Assembly: GCA_945897085.1 (NCBI GenBank)
Contig: CAMDEU010000014.1
Coordinates: 1-32,597 of the forward strand
Origin: Spirosoma fluviale
GTDB lineage: Bacteria; Bacteroidota; Bacteroidia; Cytophagales; Cyclobacteriaceae
Reading direction: 5' to 3'
DNA: 32,597 bases
The stretch's first letter is position 1. Each line of letters starts with the position of its first letter. A program made the translations under genes and the position numbers. The notes beneath the pieces are model-generated. The model did no database searches and was not told where the DNA came from. It saw nothing but the letters and a program-made list of their open reading frames with translations. Shown here in pieces: positions 9,203-13,538 of this stretch.

Positions 9203-9685
9203 CTACCCTCGAAGTTTGTCCAGTAACCCATTGAGGAGAATGAGTTCAGCTTCTTCGAGGTGAATTACTTTTTTATTGATCGCTACAATTTCAGGCTCCA
9301 ATAATTCCAAAAGGCGCAGCCCTTTTTCGGTAATGAGTACATCCACTTTTCGGCGGTTTTCAGGGCATTCTTCACGCTTCACCAAGTCCTTGGCCTTCAA
9401 CTTGTCTACCAGCCTTGAGGCATTCGACATCGTATTCAACATCCGCTCTTGGATGGCAGCGATAGTGGCGGGCTTGCCTTGCTGACCTCTTAAGATCCGC
9501 ATGACGTTGTATTGCTCCGGAGAAAGGTCCATGGGCTTTAGCACGGCCGTTTGGAAGCCTACCAGGTAGCTATGGGTGTACAATAAGTTGACCACCACCT
9601 TGTTGTAGCTATCCTTAAATTCCGACTGTTTGATTGCTTCTTCAATCTTTCCCATGGGTTCAACTTTCAATTGATGTATATACAT
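9203..9685 (-). CDS. MarR family transcriptional regulator (real start may be the internal ATG at 9655, MGKIEEAIKQSEF)
   Basis: LSPEQYNVMRILRGQQGKPATIAAIQERMLNTMSNASRLVDKLKAKDLVKREECPENRRKVDVLITEKGLRLL: MarR winged-helix pattern. Confidence 0.88.
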   Translation of the reverse strand: MYIHQLKVEPMGKIEEAIKQSEFKDSYNKVVVNLLYTHSYLVGFQTAVLKPMDLSPEQYNVMRILRGQQGKPATIAAIQERMLNTMSNASRLVDKLKAKDLVKREECPENRRKVDVLITEKGLRLLELLEPEIVAINKKVIHLEEAELILLNGLLDKLRG

Positions 9686-9773: not shown

Positions 9774-10009
9774 GGTCCACGATTGACGGTCGACGGACCA
9801 CAGTCAATTGTTCAGCATATGAAAAACGTATTTAAATTTAGATTCTATACTTGTTACCAAACGAATCGGCTGTCGACCGTGGACTGTTAGCTGTTGACAG
9901 AATGATCCACAGTCACTAGCGCCTACCCCTAAAAAACGTAAAAAATTTAGATTCTAAACCCGGTCACACAACGACTCGGCTGTCGTCAGTGGACTGTTGA
10001 CAGTTAACT
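9774..10009. repeat. Degenerate intergenic repeat array: 7-bp-period (GTNNACN) tracts embedded in a ~110-bp tandem unit
   Basis: Heptads at 9774-9808 (GGTCCAC GATTGAC GGTCGAC GGACCAC AGTCAAT), 9872-9899 (GTCGACC GTGGACT GTTAGCT GTTGACA), 9982-10009 (GTCGTCA GTGGACT GTTGACA GTTAACT). Flanks AAAAACGTA...AATTTAGATTCT (9822 and 9932) and CTGTCG (9870 and 9980) repeat at 110-bp offset; CCACAGTCA (9798 and 9907) at 109. Confidence 0.85.
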
Positions 10010-10798
10010 TTTTAGCCAATCCTTCAATAATCGATTGACTTCCTCTGGCTTTTCGATACAGCTGCTGTGACCAGCGCCTACTATGGTTTCTAGCTTGGCT
10101 CCAGCAATTCCCTGATGAATAAAAGCTGCTTTTTGTGGGGTAGTCGCTACATCCTCATCTCCTACGATCACCAAGGTAGGACAGGTAATTTTGGCAAGTT
10201 CCTCTTCTACCCCCTTGCGATAGATCACCCCTTCCACAGGACCGATAATACTTTTTTTATTAGACGCCAGTTCCTTTTTCCAATGGCGAATGGAGTCAAC
10301 TTGAGTAGGATCAGCCAACCAACTTTTTGCAAACATAATTTTCATGACCTTACTGGCTATAGGAGGGATTATTCCTAGCCAACGCACCATCCCATTGAGG
10401 AGCTTGTACTGTGGTAGATTTTCTTGGGGCTCCGCATTGGCAGAAGTCTCCAGCAAGGCTAGACTTTTAATCAATTCTGGGTGGCGCGCAGCCAAACGCA
10501 TGCCTACAAAGCCTCCCATAGACAATCCAATAAAATGAACTGGGCCACCAACCAAGGATCGGATTAATTCTACAGCATCTGATGCTACTGTATCCATGTC
10601 ATAAGGTCCCTTTACCTCACTATTTCCTTGACCCCGGTGATCGTAGGCAATGACGCGGTACTGCTTGGAAAATTCCGCCACCTGAGCCGCAAACATCTTG
10701 TGGCTCCAAAGTAAGCCATGTGAAAAAACCAAAGTCTCGGATCCGGATCCAGATTCTTGGTAGAATAGTTTCGTATTGGGAAGAGAGATATACGGCAT
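10004..10798 (-). CDS. Alpha/beta fold hydrolase
   Basis: VFSHGLLWSHKMFAAQVAEFSKQYRVIAYDHRGQGNSEV, nucleophile IGLSMGGFVGM, late VIVGDEDVATTP and GAGHSSCIEKPEEVN. Confidence 0.92.
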   Translation of the reverse strand: MPYISLPNTKLFYQESGSGSETLVFSHGLLWSHKMFAAQVAEFSKQYRVIAYDHRGQGNSEVKGPYDMDTVASDAVELIRSLVGGPVHFIGLSMGGFVGMRLAARHPELIKSLALLETSANAEPQENLPQYKLLNGMVRWLGIIPPIASKVMKIMFAKSWLADPTQVDSIRHWKKELASNKKSIIGPVEGVIYRKGVEEELAKITCPTLVIVGDEDVATTPQKAAFIHQGIAGAKLETIVGAGHSSCIEKPEEVNRLLKDWLKS

Positions 10799-10907: not shown

Positions 10908-12497
10908 TTACCAATCCAAGCCTGGCTGGGTAATGCGTACATTTTCCCGAGCTTTATGCTGATCTACAATAGTGCGAACATCTTTAAGAAGCTGCTTGGC
11001 ATCGTACACGATACCGTCCTTCACAGTATACTTCACACCACCTACACGAATTGGCTCATTCGCCTCACTGGTGCGAATCGCACCTGTACCATACAATACC
11101 TTTAGGTTTTGAAGTGGATTTTCTTCCAAGATGACAAAATCAGCCAACTTGCCTACTTCAACCGTACCCAAGTCCTTATCCAAGCCTAAGGCTTCGGCAC
11201 CATGCATGGTCGCAGCACGAATGACTTCCAAAGGATGGAATCCTGCCTCGCGCAACATTTCTAGTTCCCGGATATAGGCAAATCCATACAGCTGGTAAAT
11301 AAATCCAGAATCAGATCCGGCGGTCACTCTTCCACCACGGTTTTTGTACTCGTTGACAAAAGTCATCCAAAGACGGTAATTCTCTTTCCAAAGTACCTCT
11401 TCTTCGGTAGTCCAATCAAACCAGTAGGAACCATGAGATTGACGATTGGGAGCATAAAAACGCCAAAGAGAAGGCAGCGTATACACACCATGCCACTCCT
11501 GCGTACGCGCACGCATCAAGTCTCTGTTGGCCTCGTAGATATTAAGGGTAGGATCCAAAGTAAAGTCCAACTCTAGCAACTCATTCATCACCTTATTCCA
11601 ATGGTCTGAGAAAGGTGGTGCCGCCTGCTGCCAAAGCTTTCCTGCCTCGGCAAAGCGATGTTGCTCATTCTGGTAATTGTAATCCAACCGGAAATTTTGA
11701 ATGGTTCGATCGGTAAACAGCGCCTCAGGAAGTCCATACCAGTGTTCCATGGAAGTAAGACCAGCACGTGCAGAATGAAGTACATTCCATCTGGCCACAT
11801 CCAATTGCTGATGGTGCATGGCAGACTTTAATCCAATCCGCTTATTTTCTGAGATTGCTGCCTCCATCACTTCTGGCTTTGCTCCAAAAAACTTGATTCC
11901 ATCTGCCCCTTTGGCCTTATTTTCGTTGACCCAAGCTTTCGCTTGTTCGGCATTGGTAATAGGCCCTTTTGCTCCCTGGCCAAAAGAAGTATAAGCCAAT
12001 AATCTTGGAGCAGTGATTTCATTGGCCGCAGATTTCTTCTTGTGGTCCAAGACCCAAGTAAGTCCATTTCCAGCCGAAGGGTCACGCACAGTGGTAATTC
12101 CATGCGCCATCCAAAGTTTAAACACGTATTCTGCTGGGGTACCTTGTCCAGAGCCTCCAATATGACCGTGCATATCGATCAAACCAGGCAAAAGATAGTG
12201 CCCGGTCAGGTCCATTACCTTCGTCTTGTCGTCCGCTTTGGGACGGCGATTTTCGTTGATAGGAACGCCAGGATAACCAACTGCCTGAATCTGCGTAATG
12301 CGATTTTTCACTACCACAATATCCACAGGACCTACTGGGGGTGCCCCGGTACCGTCAATAAGCGTCACTCCACGAATAATCAGTTTCTCATAAGGGCCCT
12401 CTCCCTCTGCTCTTGCAGGGGAAGGCATGATCTGTGCAAAGGACCAGCTGACGCTAGCAACCAATGCGAGACCGAGGACAAGTATTTTTTTCAACAT
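10908..12497 (-). CDS. Amidohydrolase family protein, secreted
   Basis: Signal peptide; LTGHYLLPGLIDMHGHIGGSG metal-binding HxH; AGSDSGFIYQLYGFAYIRELEMLREAGFHPLEVIRAATMHGAEALGLDKDLGTVEVGKLADFVILEENPL. Confidence 0.9.
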   Translation of the reverse strand: MLKKILVLGLALVASVSWSFAQIMPSPARAEGEGPYEKLIIRGVTLIDGTGAPPVGPVDIVVVKNRITQIQAVGYPGVPINENRRPKADDKTKVMDLTGHYLLPGLIDMHGHIGGSGQGTPAEYVFKLWMAHGITTVRDPSAGNGLTWVLDHKKKSAANEITAPRLLAYTSFGQGAKGPITNAEQAKAWVNENKAKGADGIKFFGAKPEVMEAAISENKRIGLKSAMHHQQLDVARWNVLHSARAGLTSMEHWYGLPEALFTDRTIQNFRLDYNYQNEQHRFAEAGKLWQQAAPPFSDHWNKVMNELLELDFTLDPTLNIYEANRDLMRARTQEWHGVYTLPSLWRFYAPNRQSHGSYWFDWTTEEEVLWKENYRLWMTFVNEYKNRGGRVTAGSDSGFIYQLYGFAYIRELEMLREAGFHPLEVIRAATMHGAEALGLDKDLGTVEVGKLADFVILEENPLQNLKVLYGTGAIRTSEANEPIRVGGVKYTVKDGIVYDAKQLLKDVRTIVDQHKARENVRITQPGLDW

Positions 12498-12602: not shown

Positions 12603-12683
12603 GATATTTTCAACGGATTTGAATCGCTTGACTTAGCAAAAACTTATTCAATCGATAAGCTTGCGATTTACAAAGTACCTACT

Positions 12684-12711
12684 GTCGTCAGTGGACTGTC
12701 AACCGTTGACC
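12684..12711 (+). repeat. Heptad-repeat tract (fourth copy of the intergenic GTNNACN family)
   Basis: GTCGTCA GTGGACT GTCAACC GTTGACC. CTGTCGTCAGTGGACTGT (12682-12699) is identical to 9980-9997. Confidence 0.8.
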
Positions 12712-12722
12712 ATCTGAGCATT

Positions 12723-13538
12723 TTACAAGTCTTTGAACTTTTCCATGATCTCTTCAGAAATCCCCGTAAAGGAATACCCTCCATCATGGAAAAGATTTTG
12801 CATGGTCACCATGCGAGTTAAGTCAGAAAACATGGTCACAATGTAATCAGCACATGCATCTGCCGAGGCATTTCCCAAAGGAGAAAGAGCTTCTGCAAAG
12901 TTGTAAAAAGAATCAAATCCACCAATTCCACTTCCTGCAGTGGTTTTAGTAGGAGATTGAGAGATGGTGTTGACGCGAACTTTCTTCAATTTACCAAAAC
13001 GATACCCATAGCCTCTGGCGATACTTTCTAACAAGGCCTTGGCGTCTGCCATATCCGTGTAGAACGGGAATATCCGTTGTGCTGCGATATAGGAAAGCCC
13101 TACTATCGATCCCCACTCCTTCATCACATCCATCTTCTCGGCTACCTGCATCATCTTGTGAAACGAGATCGCAGATACATCGTAGGACTTCATGGCCCAA
13201 TCGTAATTGAGGTCACCGTAGGCTTTGCCTTTACGGATGTTGGGAGACATGCCGATGGAATGAAGCAAAAAGTCAAAATCTGCTCCCAAAAACTCTTTTG
13301 CCTCCGCGTATAACTTTTCAATATCTTCCACTACTGTAGCATCTGCACCAATTACGATGGTATTGCACTCCTCAGCAAGTTCTTTAATCGCTCCCATACG
13401 CATGGCAATGGGCGCATTGGTCAAGACAAATTTTCCGCCTTGATCCTTTACCTTGAGCGCAGTTTTCCAAGCAATCGAATTTTCATCAAGTGCACCAGTA
13501 ATGATTCCTACTTTTCCTTTAAGTAAATTTTCTGACAT
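12723..13538 (-). CDS. fabI: Enoyl-[acyl-carrier-protein] reductase
   Basis: LLKGKVGIITGALDENSIAWKTA...DFLLHSIGMSPN...GLSYIAAQRIFPFYTDMADAKALLESIARGYGYRFGKLKKVRVNTISQSPTKTTAGSGIGGF. Confidence 0.93.
   Translation of the reverse strand: MSENLLKGKVGIITGALDENSIAWKTALKVKDQGGKFVLTNAPIAMRMGAIKELAEECNTIVIGADATVVEDIEKLYAEAKEFLGADFDFLLHSIGMSPNIRKGKAYGDLNYDWAMKSYDVSAISFHKMMQVAEKMDVMKEWGSIVGLSYIAAQRIFPFYTDMADAKALLESIARGYGYRFGKLKKVRVNTISQSPTKTTAGSGIGGFDSFYNFAEALSPLGNASADACADYIVTMFSDLTRMVTMQNLFHDGGYSFTGISEEIMEKFKDL

Follow-up and report, generated by a model that had tools for sequence, protein, structure and literature searches.

The degenerate heptanucleotide tracts that lie between genes in a 32,597-nucleotide stretch of Spirosoma fluviale DNA (the window, meaning the whole stretch analysed) are probably the terminal inverted arrays of gene-less copies, or the single surviving ends, of elements whose full form carries a PF05635 (S23) gene. 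The product of this gene is the 23S rRNA intervening-sequence protein (IVP), also named S23, S23p or 'four helix bundle protein'. The original prediction presented the heptamers as an intergenic repeat family and missed that they are the ends of a dispersed element, the full form of which appears to include a PF05635 gene.

Heptamer tracts and the element that they bound

All four tracts of the window were confirmed, at 9775-9809 (five units), 9872-9898, 9982-10008 and 12684-12710. A scan of the window that required 13 or more of the 16 GT..AC positions to match across four in-phase units returned 12 four-unit segments, compared with a mean and a maximum of 0 in 30 dinucleotide shuffles. The features of the region are as follows.

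9203-9685, minus strand: MarR-family regulator, a flanking gene
9775-9809, plus strand: end array of the first element copy, GTCCACG/ATTGACG/GTCGACG/GACCACA/GTCAATT read on the plus strand; mirror of the array at 9872-9898
9810-9864, minus strand: AT-rich core of the gene-less element, TTTAGATTCTA...AACGAATCG; a seven-copy profile matches 9775-9898 on the minus strand, E 6.4e-33
9865-9898, minus strand: opposite end array of the first copy, with a weak fifth unit ATCGGCT, then GTCGACC/GTGGACT/GTTAGCT/GTTGACA, on the plus strand
9906-10008, minus strand: second, truncated copy, made up of the core and one end array; profile positions 1-105, E 5.8e-23
9975-10008, minus strand: end array of the truncated copy, CTCGGCT/GTCGTCA/GTGGACT/GTTGACA/GTTAACT on the plus strand; carries the end motif CTCGGCTGTCGTC
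10004-10798, minus strand: alpha/beta hydrolase, a flanking gene whose last codons extend into the element
10908-12497, minus strand: amidohydrolase, a flanking gene
12674-12710, minus strand: single end array, lying past the stop codon of fabI and ahead of its terminator, GTCGTCA/GTGGACT/GTCAACC/GTTGACC on the plus strand
12723-13538, minus strand: enoyl-ACP reductase (FabI-like), a flanking gene

Terminal inverted repeats are present in the window, where the array at 9775-9809 mirrors that at 9872-9898; read on the minus strand, the array at 9865-9898 is GTCAAC.GCTAAC.GTCCAC.GTCGAC.AGCCGAT, and the pattern is readable on both strands, as had been claimed. The tracts are the ends of a larger dispersed element. 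The seven-copy profile finds full copies at 9775-9898 of the window and at C37, C5 and C42, together with the truncated copy at 9906-10008 and the single end at 12674-12710; the short non-coding element with inverted termini is multi-locus, with copies at C5, C14, C37 and C42 of the host genome, and its core (9810-9864) recurs in other copies of the host genome and of relatives. The window copies hold no PF05635 ORF between their ends, no recognisable gene remnant was found in the core, and no Rfam match was found in the window. The view of the family as neither coding nor CRISPR holds: the 7-bp period runs without spacers, and no cas genes occur among the flanking genes examined. The TAA stop codon of the hydrolase gene (10004-10006) lies within the terminal GTTAAC unit of the truncated element, which at 10003-10009 supplies this gene with its last residue and stop codon, and at pdxJ in genomes G016, G071 and G078 a TAG stop codon is completed by the element's first G.

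The core originally proposed, GTNNACN, was right as to the GT..AC frame and too broad as to the unit, which is narrower, GTCVACR, and has polarity. In the oriented unit, GTC-V-AC-R, the fixed positions are G at 0.98-1.0, T at 0.74-0.95, C at 0.62-0.96, A at 0.98-0.99 and C at 0.94-0.98. Among 123 unique tracts, 92 contain exactly four units, of which unit 1 is usually GTCAAC next to a T-rich outer flank, and a weaker, decayed fifth unit, AGC(A/C)G, occurs on the inner side of the tract. Tracts are single, in direct tandem or in inverted pairs that bound a 100-150 bp dispersed intergenic element; neighbouring tracts are inverted with GTCAAC outward in 16 cases and direct tandem in 22, the reverse arrangement being absent (0). 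A comparison of orthologous tracts, which covered three element ends in small, hand-listed ortholog sets, found 10 changes among 304 cells of the GT..AC frame vs 36 among 209 at other positions (Fisher p=7e-8). The frame is constrained, while the remaining positions are nearly free. Near-identical copies in free number, the mark of SSRs and STRRs, were not found, the units being degenerate, mostly four in number and fixed in polarity. The suggestion of a slippage-made, free-running repeat fails on this fixed unit number and polarity and on the specific end sequences.

A genome-wide scan for in-phase GTNNACN runs bore out the reality of the family, revealing many copies and an excess over controls. 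In the host genome, a 77%-complete MAG, exact (GTNNACN)x3 occurs at 25 places vs 0 for a reversed-pattern control, and four units with at most 3 mismatches occur at 116 places vs 11. The excess extends to 36 sampled relatives of the same genus, with counts that vary widely between species, and for exact four-unit runs control hits were 0 in most of the same-genus genomes that have them. The predicted intergenic location was also borne out: a sample of 728 kb from the host genome contains 41 tracts, of which 36 fall in the 9.5% of the sequence that is intergenic (p=7e-32). Most tract clusters in the same 728 kb touch the 3' end of a gene, often ~15 nt or less from the stop codon, and 4 of 25 sit between divergent genes.

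An unbiased search of intergenic DNA for periodic tracts, independent of word, found them almost exclusively at period 7, with 9 in the host genome vs 0-2 at other periods, and 8, 3 and 19 at period 7 in G021, G033 and G016, respectively. Several further heptamer words were recovered (GTACNAN, AAGTAGC, GGTTAAA and TTACGAG), so that GTCVACR is one of a set. Lag-7 autocorrelation in the intergenic DNA of the host genome is negligible outside the tracts. In two genomes of the same genus, G016 and G023, tandem units of ~110 bp form long mosaics in which GTGGACC, AAGTAGC and CTGCCNA heptamers occur together.

Nine close species have a filled FabI site. The site is empty, with the stop codon leading straight into the terminator, in G095, G089, G013, G092, G002 and G006 and in more distant species. 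No target-site duplication was seen at the FabI and hydrolase sites, and the search for a clean insertion or excision junction or a target-site duplication returned none. An outer inverted pair, GATTATCCGC ... GCGGATAATC, surrounds several GTCVACR elements in the host clade.

PF05635 genes between mirrored heptamer arrays

At two tract-bearing loci, a PF05635 ORF was found between the tracts. At the pdxJ-hydrolase locus, inverted GTCVACR arrays bound a ~500 bp PF05635-encoding element in G016, G083, G014, G078, G024 and G084. At the same locus, G071 has the same ends, a remnant of the 5' leader and the right-end motif, with the PF05635 gene missing; G075 has a decayed PF05635 gene; and the host genome has a gene-less element of 127 bp. 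The right end of the gene-bearing element reads ACTCGGCTGTCGTC.GTGGAC, and positions 9974-9994 of the window read ACTCGGCTGTCGTCAGTGGAC. Because the right-end motif CTCGGCTGTCGTC is common to the right-hand tract of the window and the gene-bearing pdxJ elements, the window tracts are tied to PF05635 elements by sequence, beyond the period alone.

The single PF05635 gene found in the host genome is located in the sucB-lpd interval and has five GTAC units to either side of it. A gene with GTAC ends occupies this site in 19 of 30 species, and the gene-less species mostly have short segments with other heptamer words, which indicates that the words turn over quickly. A clean empty site for the PF05635 element was not found at pdxJ or sucB-lpd, the gene-less species mostly carrying other-word arrays. 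At both loci the heptamer word differs from one species to another, whether or not the gene is present, as if element types had replaced each other, and the pdxJ-type proteins (MAFKFEELRVW...) look like a branch distinct from the sucB-lpd type (MHRYKELSVW...).

Period-7 tracts accompany 29 of the 30 PF05635 loci in the genus, with 51 tracts at this period and none at periods 5, 6, 8, 9 or 10, and they are concentrated within ~200 nt around the gene. Control loci had a period-7 tract in 1 of 30 cases for Y1 transposase, 0 of 15 for FabI and 0 of 17 for the hydrolase. Conversely, only 2 of 80 GTNGACY-array loci elsewhere are near a PF05635 gene, so most arrays are gene-less. Three PF05635-less genomes all have no exact tract, an association too weak (p=0.047) to carry weight.

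The 30 genus loci represent three neighbourhoods, and same-genus loci are related; the sample was therefore widened to the phylum and to other phyla. Period detection used a threshold of 18-20/28. Of 28 flanks in the Bacteroidota draw, 12 and 11 had period 7, and 5 and 5 had period 8; among control flanks, period 7 was found in 1 of 56. For other phyla (Cyanobacteria, Chloroflexi, Acidobacteria, Myxococcota, Verrucomicrobia and others), a sample reached via GTNGACY arrays and thus a selected one, period 7 was found in 20 and 23 of 30 and in 6 of 60 control flanks. Across the 107 pooled PF05635 loci from several phyla, a degenerate 7-mer (sometimes 8-mer) array is present on at least one side in 95 and on both sides in 64; counted as 44 neighbourhoods, one side or more carries 7/8-mers in 39, and both sides do in 28. 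Twelve plasmid loci were chosen solely for the gene, and about ten of them have 7/8-mer arrays on at least one side; Azospirillum AZO_p2 is one of these. Some PF05635 genes have mirrored octamer (period 8) arrays, and spacing seems to go with the lineage of the element. Also among the plasmid loci are PF05635 genes with heptamer or octamer arrays inside CRISPR operons on cyanobacterial plasmids, in the orders cas6-gene-cas4 and cas10-gene-cmr3.

In the full element, an ORF of ~350 nt is bracketed at ~50-100 nt by two mirrored arrays, each built from about five degenerate heptamers that share one word. At 73 of 85 PF05635 loci (27/29, 24/27 and 22/29) the arrays of the two sides are inverted, and their word similarity is 0.70 within a locus vs 0.45 when different neighbourhoods are compared (p=4e-33). 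Of 44 GTAC-type arrays next to the gene, 31 contain five units, and in most GTAC-type loci the 3' array begins 70 nt after the domain. Heptamer word and PF05635 protein sequence showed no correlation across 27 neighbourhoods (Mantel rho 0.01, p=0.45).

RNA structure, landing sites, REP repeats and slippage

The hairpins that had been predicted found partial support. Inverted tracts can pair at their framework, and their folds are somewhat stabler than shuffles (z -2.3 to -3.4); variable positions within tracts showed no covariation of the kind that a hairpin would need, and complementarity between the two ends of the element showed no excess (0.308 within loci vs 0.351 between, n.s.). A reading of the tracts as a hairpin or RNA structure was rejected, since the free positions neither covary within tracts nor complement each other end-to-end beyond the frame. 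A related explanation would make the elements a 3' RNA or operon-processing structure used by the host, in which an imperfect stem is cut by RNase III to split co-transcribed genes and mobility is secondary. Its attraction lies in where the elements sit, directly past stop codons and in the gaps that separate co-oriented genes (sucB-lpd, pdxJ-hydrolase, cas6-cas4, cas10-cmr3), their long retention at sucB-lpd, the fold z-scores just given and the cleavage of rRNA intervening sequences by RNase III (PMC4990558). We consider it unlikely, given that the two ends show no more complementarity at their variable positions than chance would give, the FabI site is empty in several close relatives and some tract clusters lie between divergent genes.

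The tracts might instead be landing sites, with heptamers arising by slippage in intergenic DNA and PF05635 genes inserting into them. Arrays do greatly outnumber PF05635 genes, heptamers dominate the periodic tracts of intergenic DNA in the genomes searched (9 at period 7 vs 0-2 at others in the host genome), and heptamer SSRs are described as widespread (Mrazek 2007, cited in PMC4679880). Insertion into one array, however, predicts the same orientation on both sides, in conflict with the inversion seen at 73 of 85 loci; together with the regular distances (the 70-nt 3' gap), the leader remnants of the gene-bearing element kept in G071 and a unit number fixed at 4-5, this makes the landing-site account decidedly improbable. 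Plain slippage-generated heptanucleotide repeats without function are very unlikely: long SSRs of bacteria often have a period of 7 (PMC4679880, PMC4692102), but the constant number of units, their polarity, the end motifs, the cores common to several copies, the mirrored pairing and the conserved frame all speak against such an origin. It is barely credible that the tracts are REP/BIME-like repeats mobilised by a Y1 (RAYT) transposase, despite their intergenic, dispersed occurrence, their inverted and tandem arrangement and the presence of Y1_Tnp genes in 69 of 76 genomes. The GTAG/CGTC tag of known REP families is absent, and the REP/RAYT reading is largely refuted by the finding of a tract near 1 of 30 Y1 loci and by the mismatch between G014, which has tracts and no Y1 match, and G017, which has nine Y1 matches and no exact tract.

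Known relatives and possible joining of the ends

Intervening sequences (IVS) of 23S rRNA that carry an S23p/PF05635 ORF are known from Coxiella, Leptospira and Azospirillum. They resemble the elements described here in having terminal inverted repeats around a PF05635 ORF, and in Azospirillum AZO_p2 the same anatomy is found inside 23S rRNA, each side having four clear RGANGAC heptamers and one weaker. In the Coxiella intervening sequence, GACAGAT heptamers lie upstream of the S23p ORF (PMC4990558). The window copies differ in being intergenic, gene-less and multi-copy and in using a different word; location inside 23S rRNA, true of the Azospirillum relative, is not a property of theirs.

Close parallels exist among repeats that have been described without reference to PF05635. 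According to PMC4692102, the Xanthomonas GGGAATC and Nostoc GGGGA(C/T)T repeats are degenerate heptamers (GGGANTN), mostly of four units and intergenic, which form 70-75 convergent inverted pairs per genome near the end of the upstream ORF and are explained as G-quadruplex SSRs; the passages on these repeats make no link to S23 elements. The anatomy of GGGAATC matches that of GTCVACR (degenerate, four units, inverted pairs, intergenic), with a different word. X. campestris encodes an S23 protein, Xcc0516, which is reported to be a homopentameric toroid (PMC4990558; PDB 2gsc), and the PDB homologues 2gsc and 2rld have five chains each. Cyanobacterial STRRs, the long SSRs of Mrazek and the TAACTGA repeats (the last reviewed in PMC4679880) are likewise intergenic heptamer arrays (PMC4679880). 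The original comparison with STRRs was apt in that cyanobacterial heptamer arrays also flank PF05635 genes, while STRR and TAACTGA arrays consist of near-identical copies in variable number and GTCVACR arrays are degenerate and fixed in number.

Like MITEs and REPINs, the elements are short, non-coding and dispersed, with inverted ends, and are derivable by internal deletion (G071). Unlike them, they lack a transposase partner from any known family and a link to RAYT, and a target-site duplication was not found. PF05635 is not a known transposase, and the gene-bearing relative encodes PF05635 instead. The Avd protein of diversity-generating retroelements has a PF05635-like fold, and BPP-1 Avd (4DWL) and 2GSC have been judged homologous (PMC10053308).

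Gene-less copies would arise through internal deletion of a gene-bearing element and may persist or spread in the manner of MITEs, at the expense of gene-bearing copies or of another host function; their movement or upkeep would then act in trans. The two ends would be brought together through recognition of frame and spacing, with GT..AC recognised and the variable letters left free. One way of joining them might be imperfect pairing of the RNA into a stem, like that of rRNA intervening sequences; this would explain the common word on both sides whatever the protein, and would explain neither the 7-nt period nor the non-complementary free positions. Another might be a pentameric S23 ring, with about one heptamer per subunit. 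Arrays of about five units and homologues of five chains make such a reading of the arrays by an S23 ring possible, and the lack of correlation between word and protein weighs against it, weakening the case for sequence-specific reading by the S23 protein. That the S23 pentamer is the agent that brings the two ends together is conceivable, although we lean somewhat against it. Rather doubtful, and offered tentatively, is the wider proposal that most degenerate heptamer and octamer intergenic repeats (GTCVACR, GTACNAN, GGGAATC, STRRs) are ends of one widespread element class, in which a pentameric S23/Avd-like ring would hold two mirrored five-unit arrays, one unit per subunit and largely independent of the word, and which would also be the source of 23S rRNA intervening sequences.

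A general tie between heptamer arrays and PF05635 genes was not found in the open-access papers searched. Intergenic heptamers have been on record for decades with no explanation, and the PF05635 proteins, though abundant and with solved structures, have an obscure role. Their co-occurrence makes both puzzles testable, through the questions of whether an S23 ring binds the arrays and whether it acts on gene-less copies. The link between PF05635 and the arrays would provide a simple annotation rule for many unexplained repeats, and it joins the long-unexplained seven-base repeats of bacteria to a known, poorly understood selfish element.
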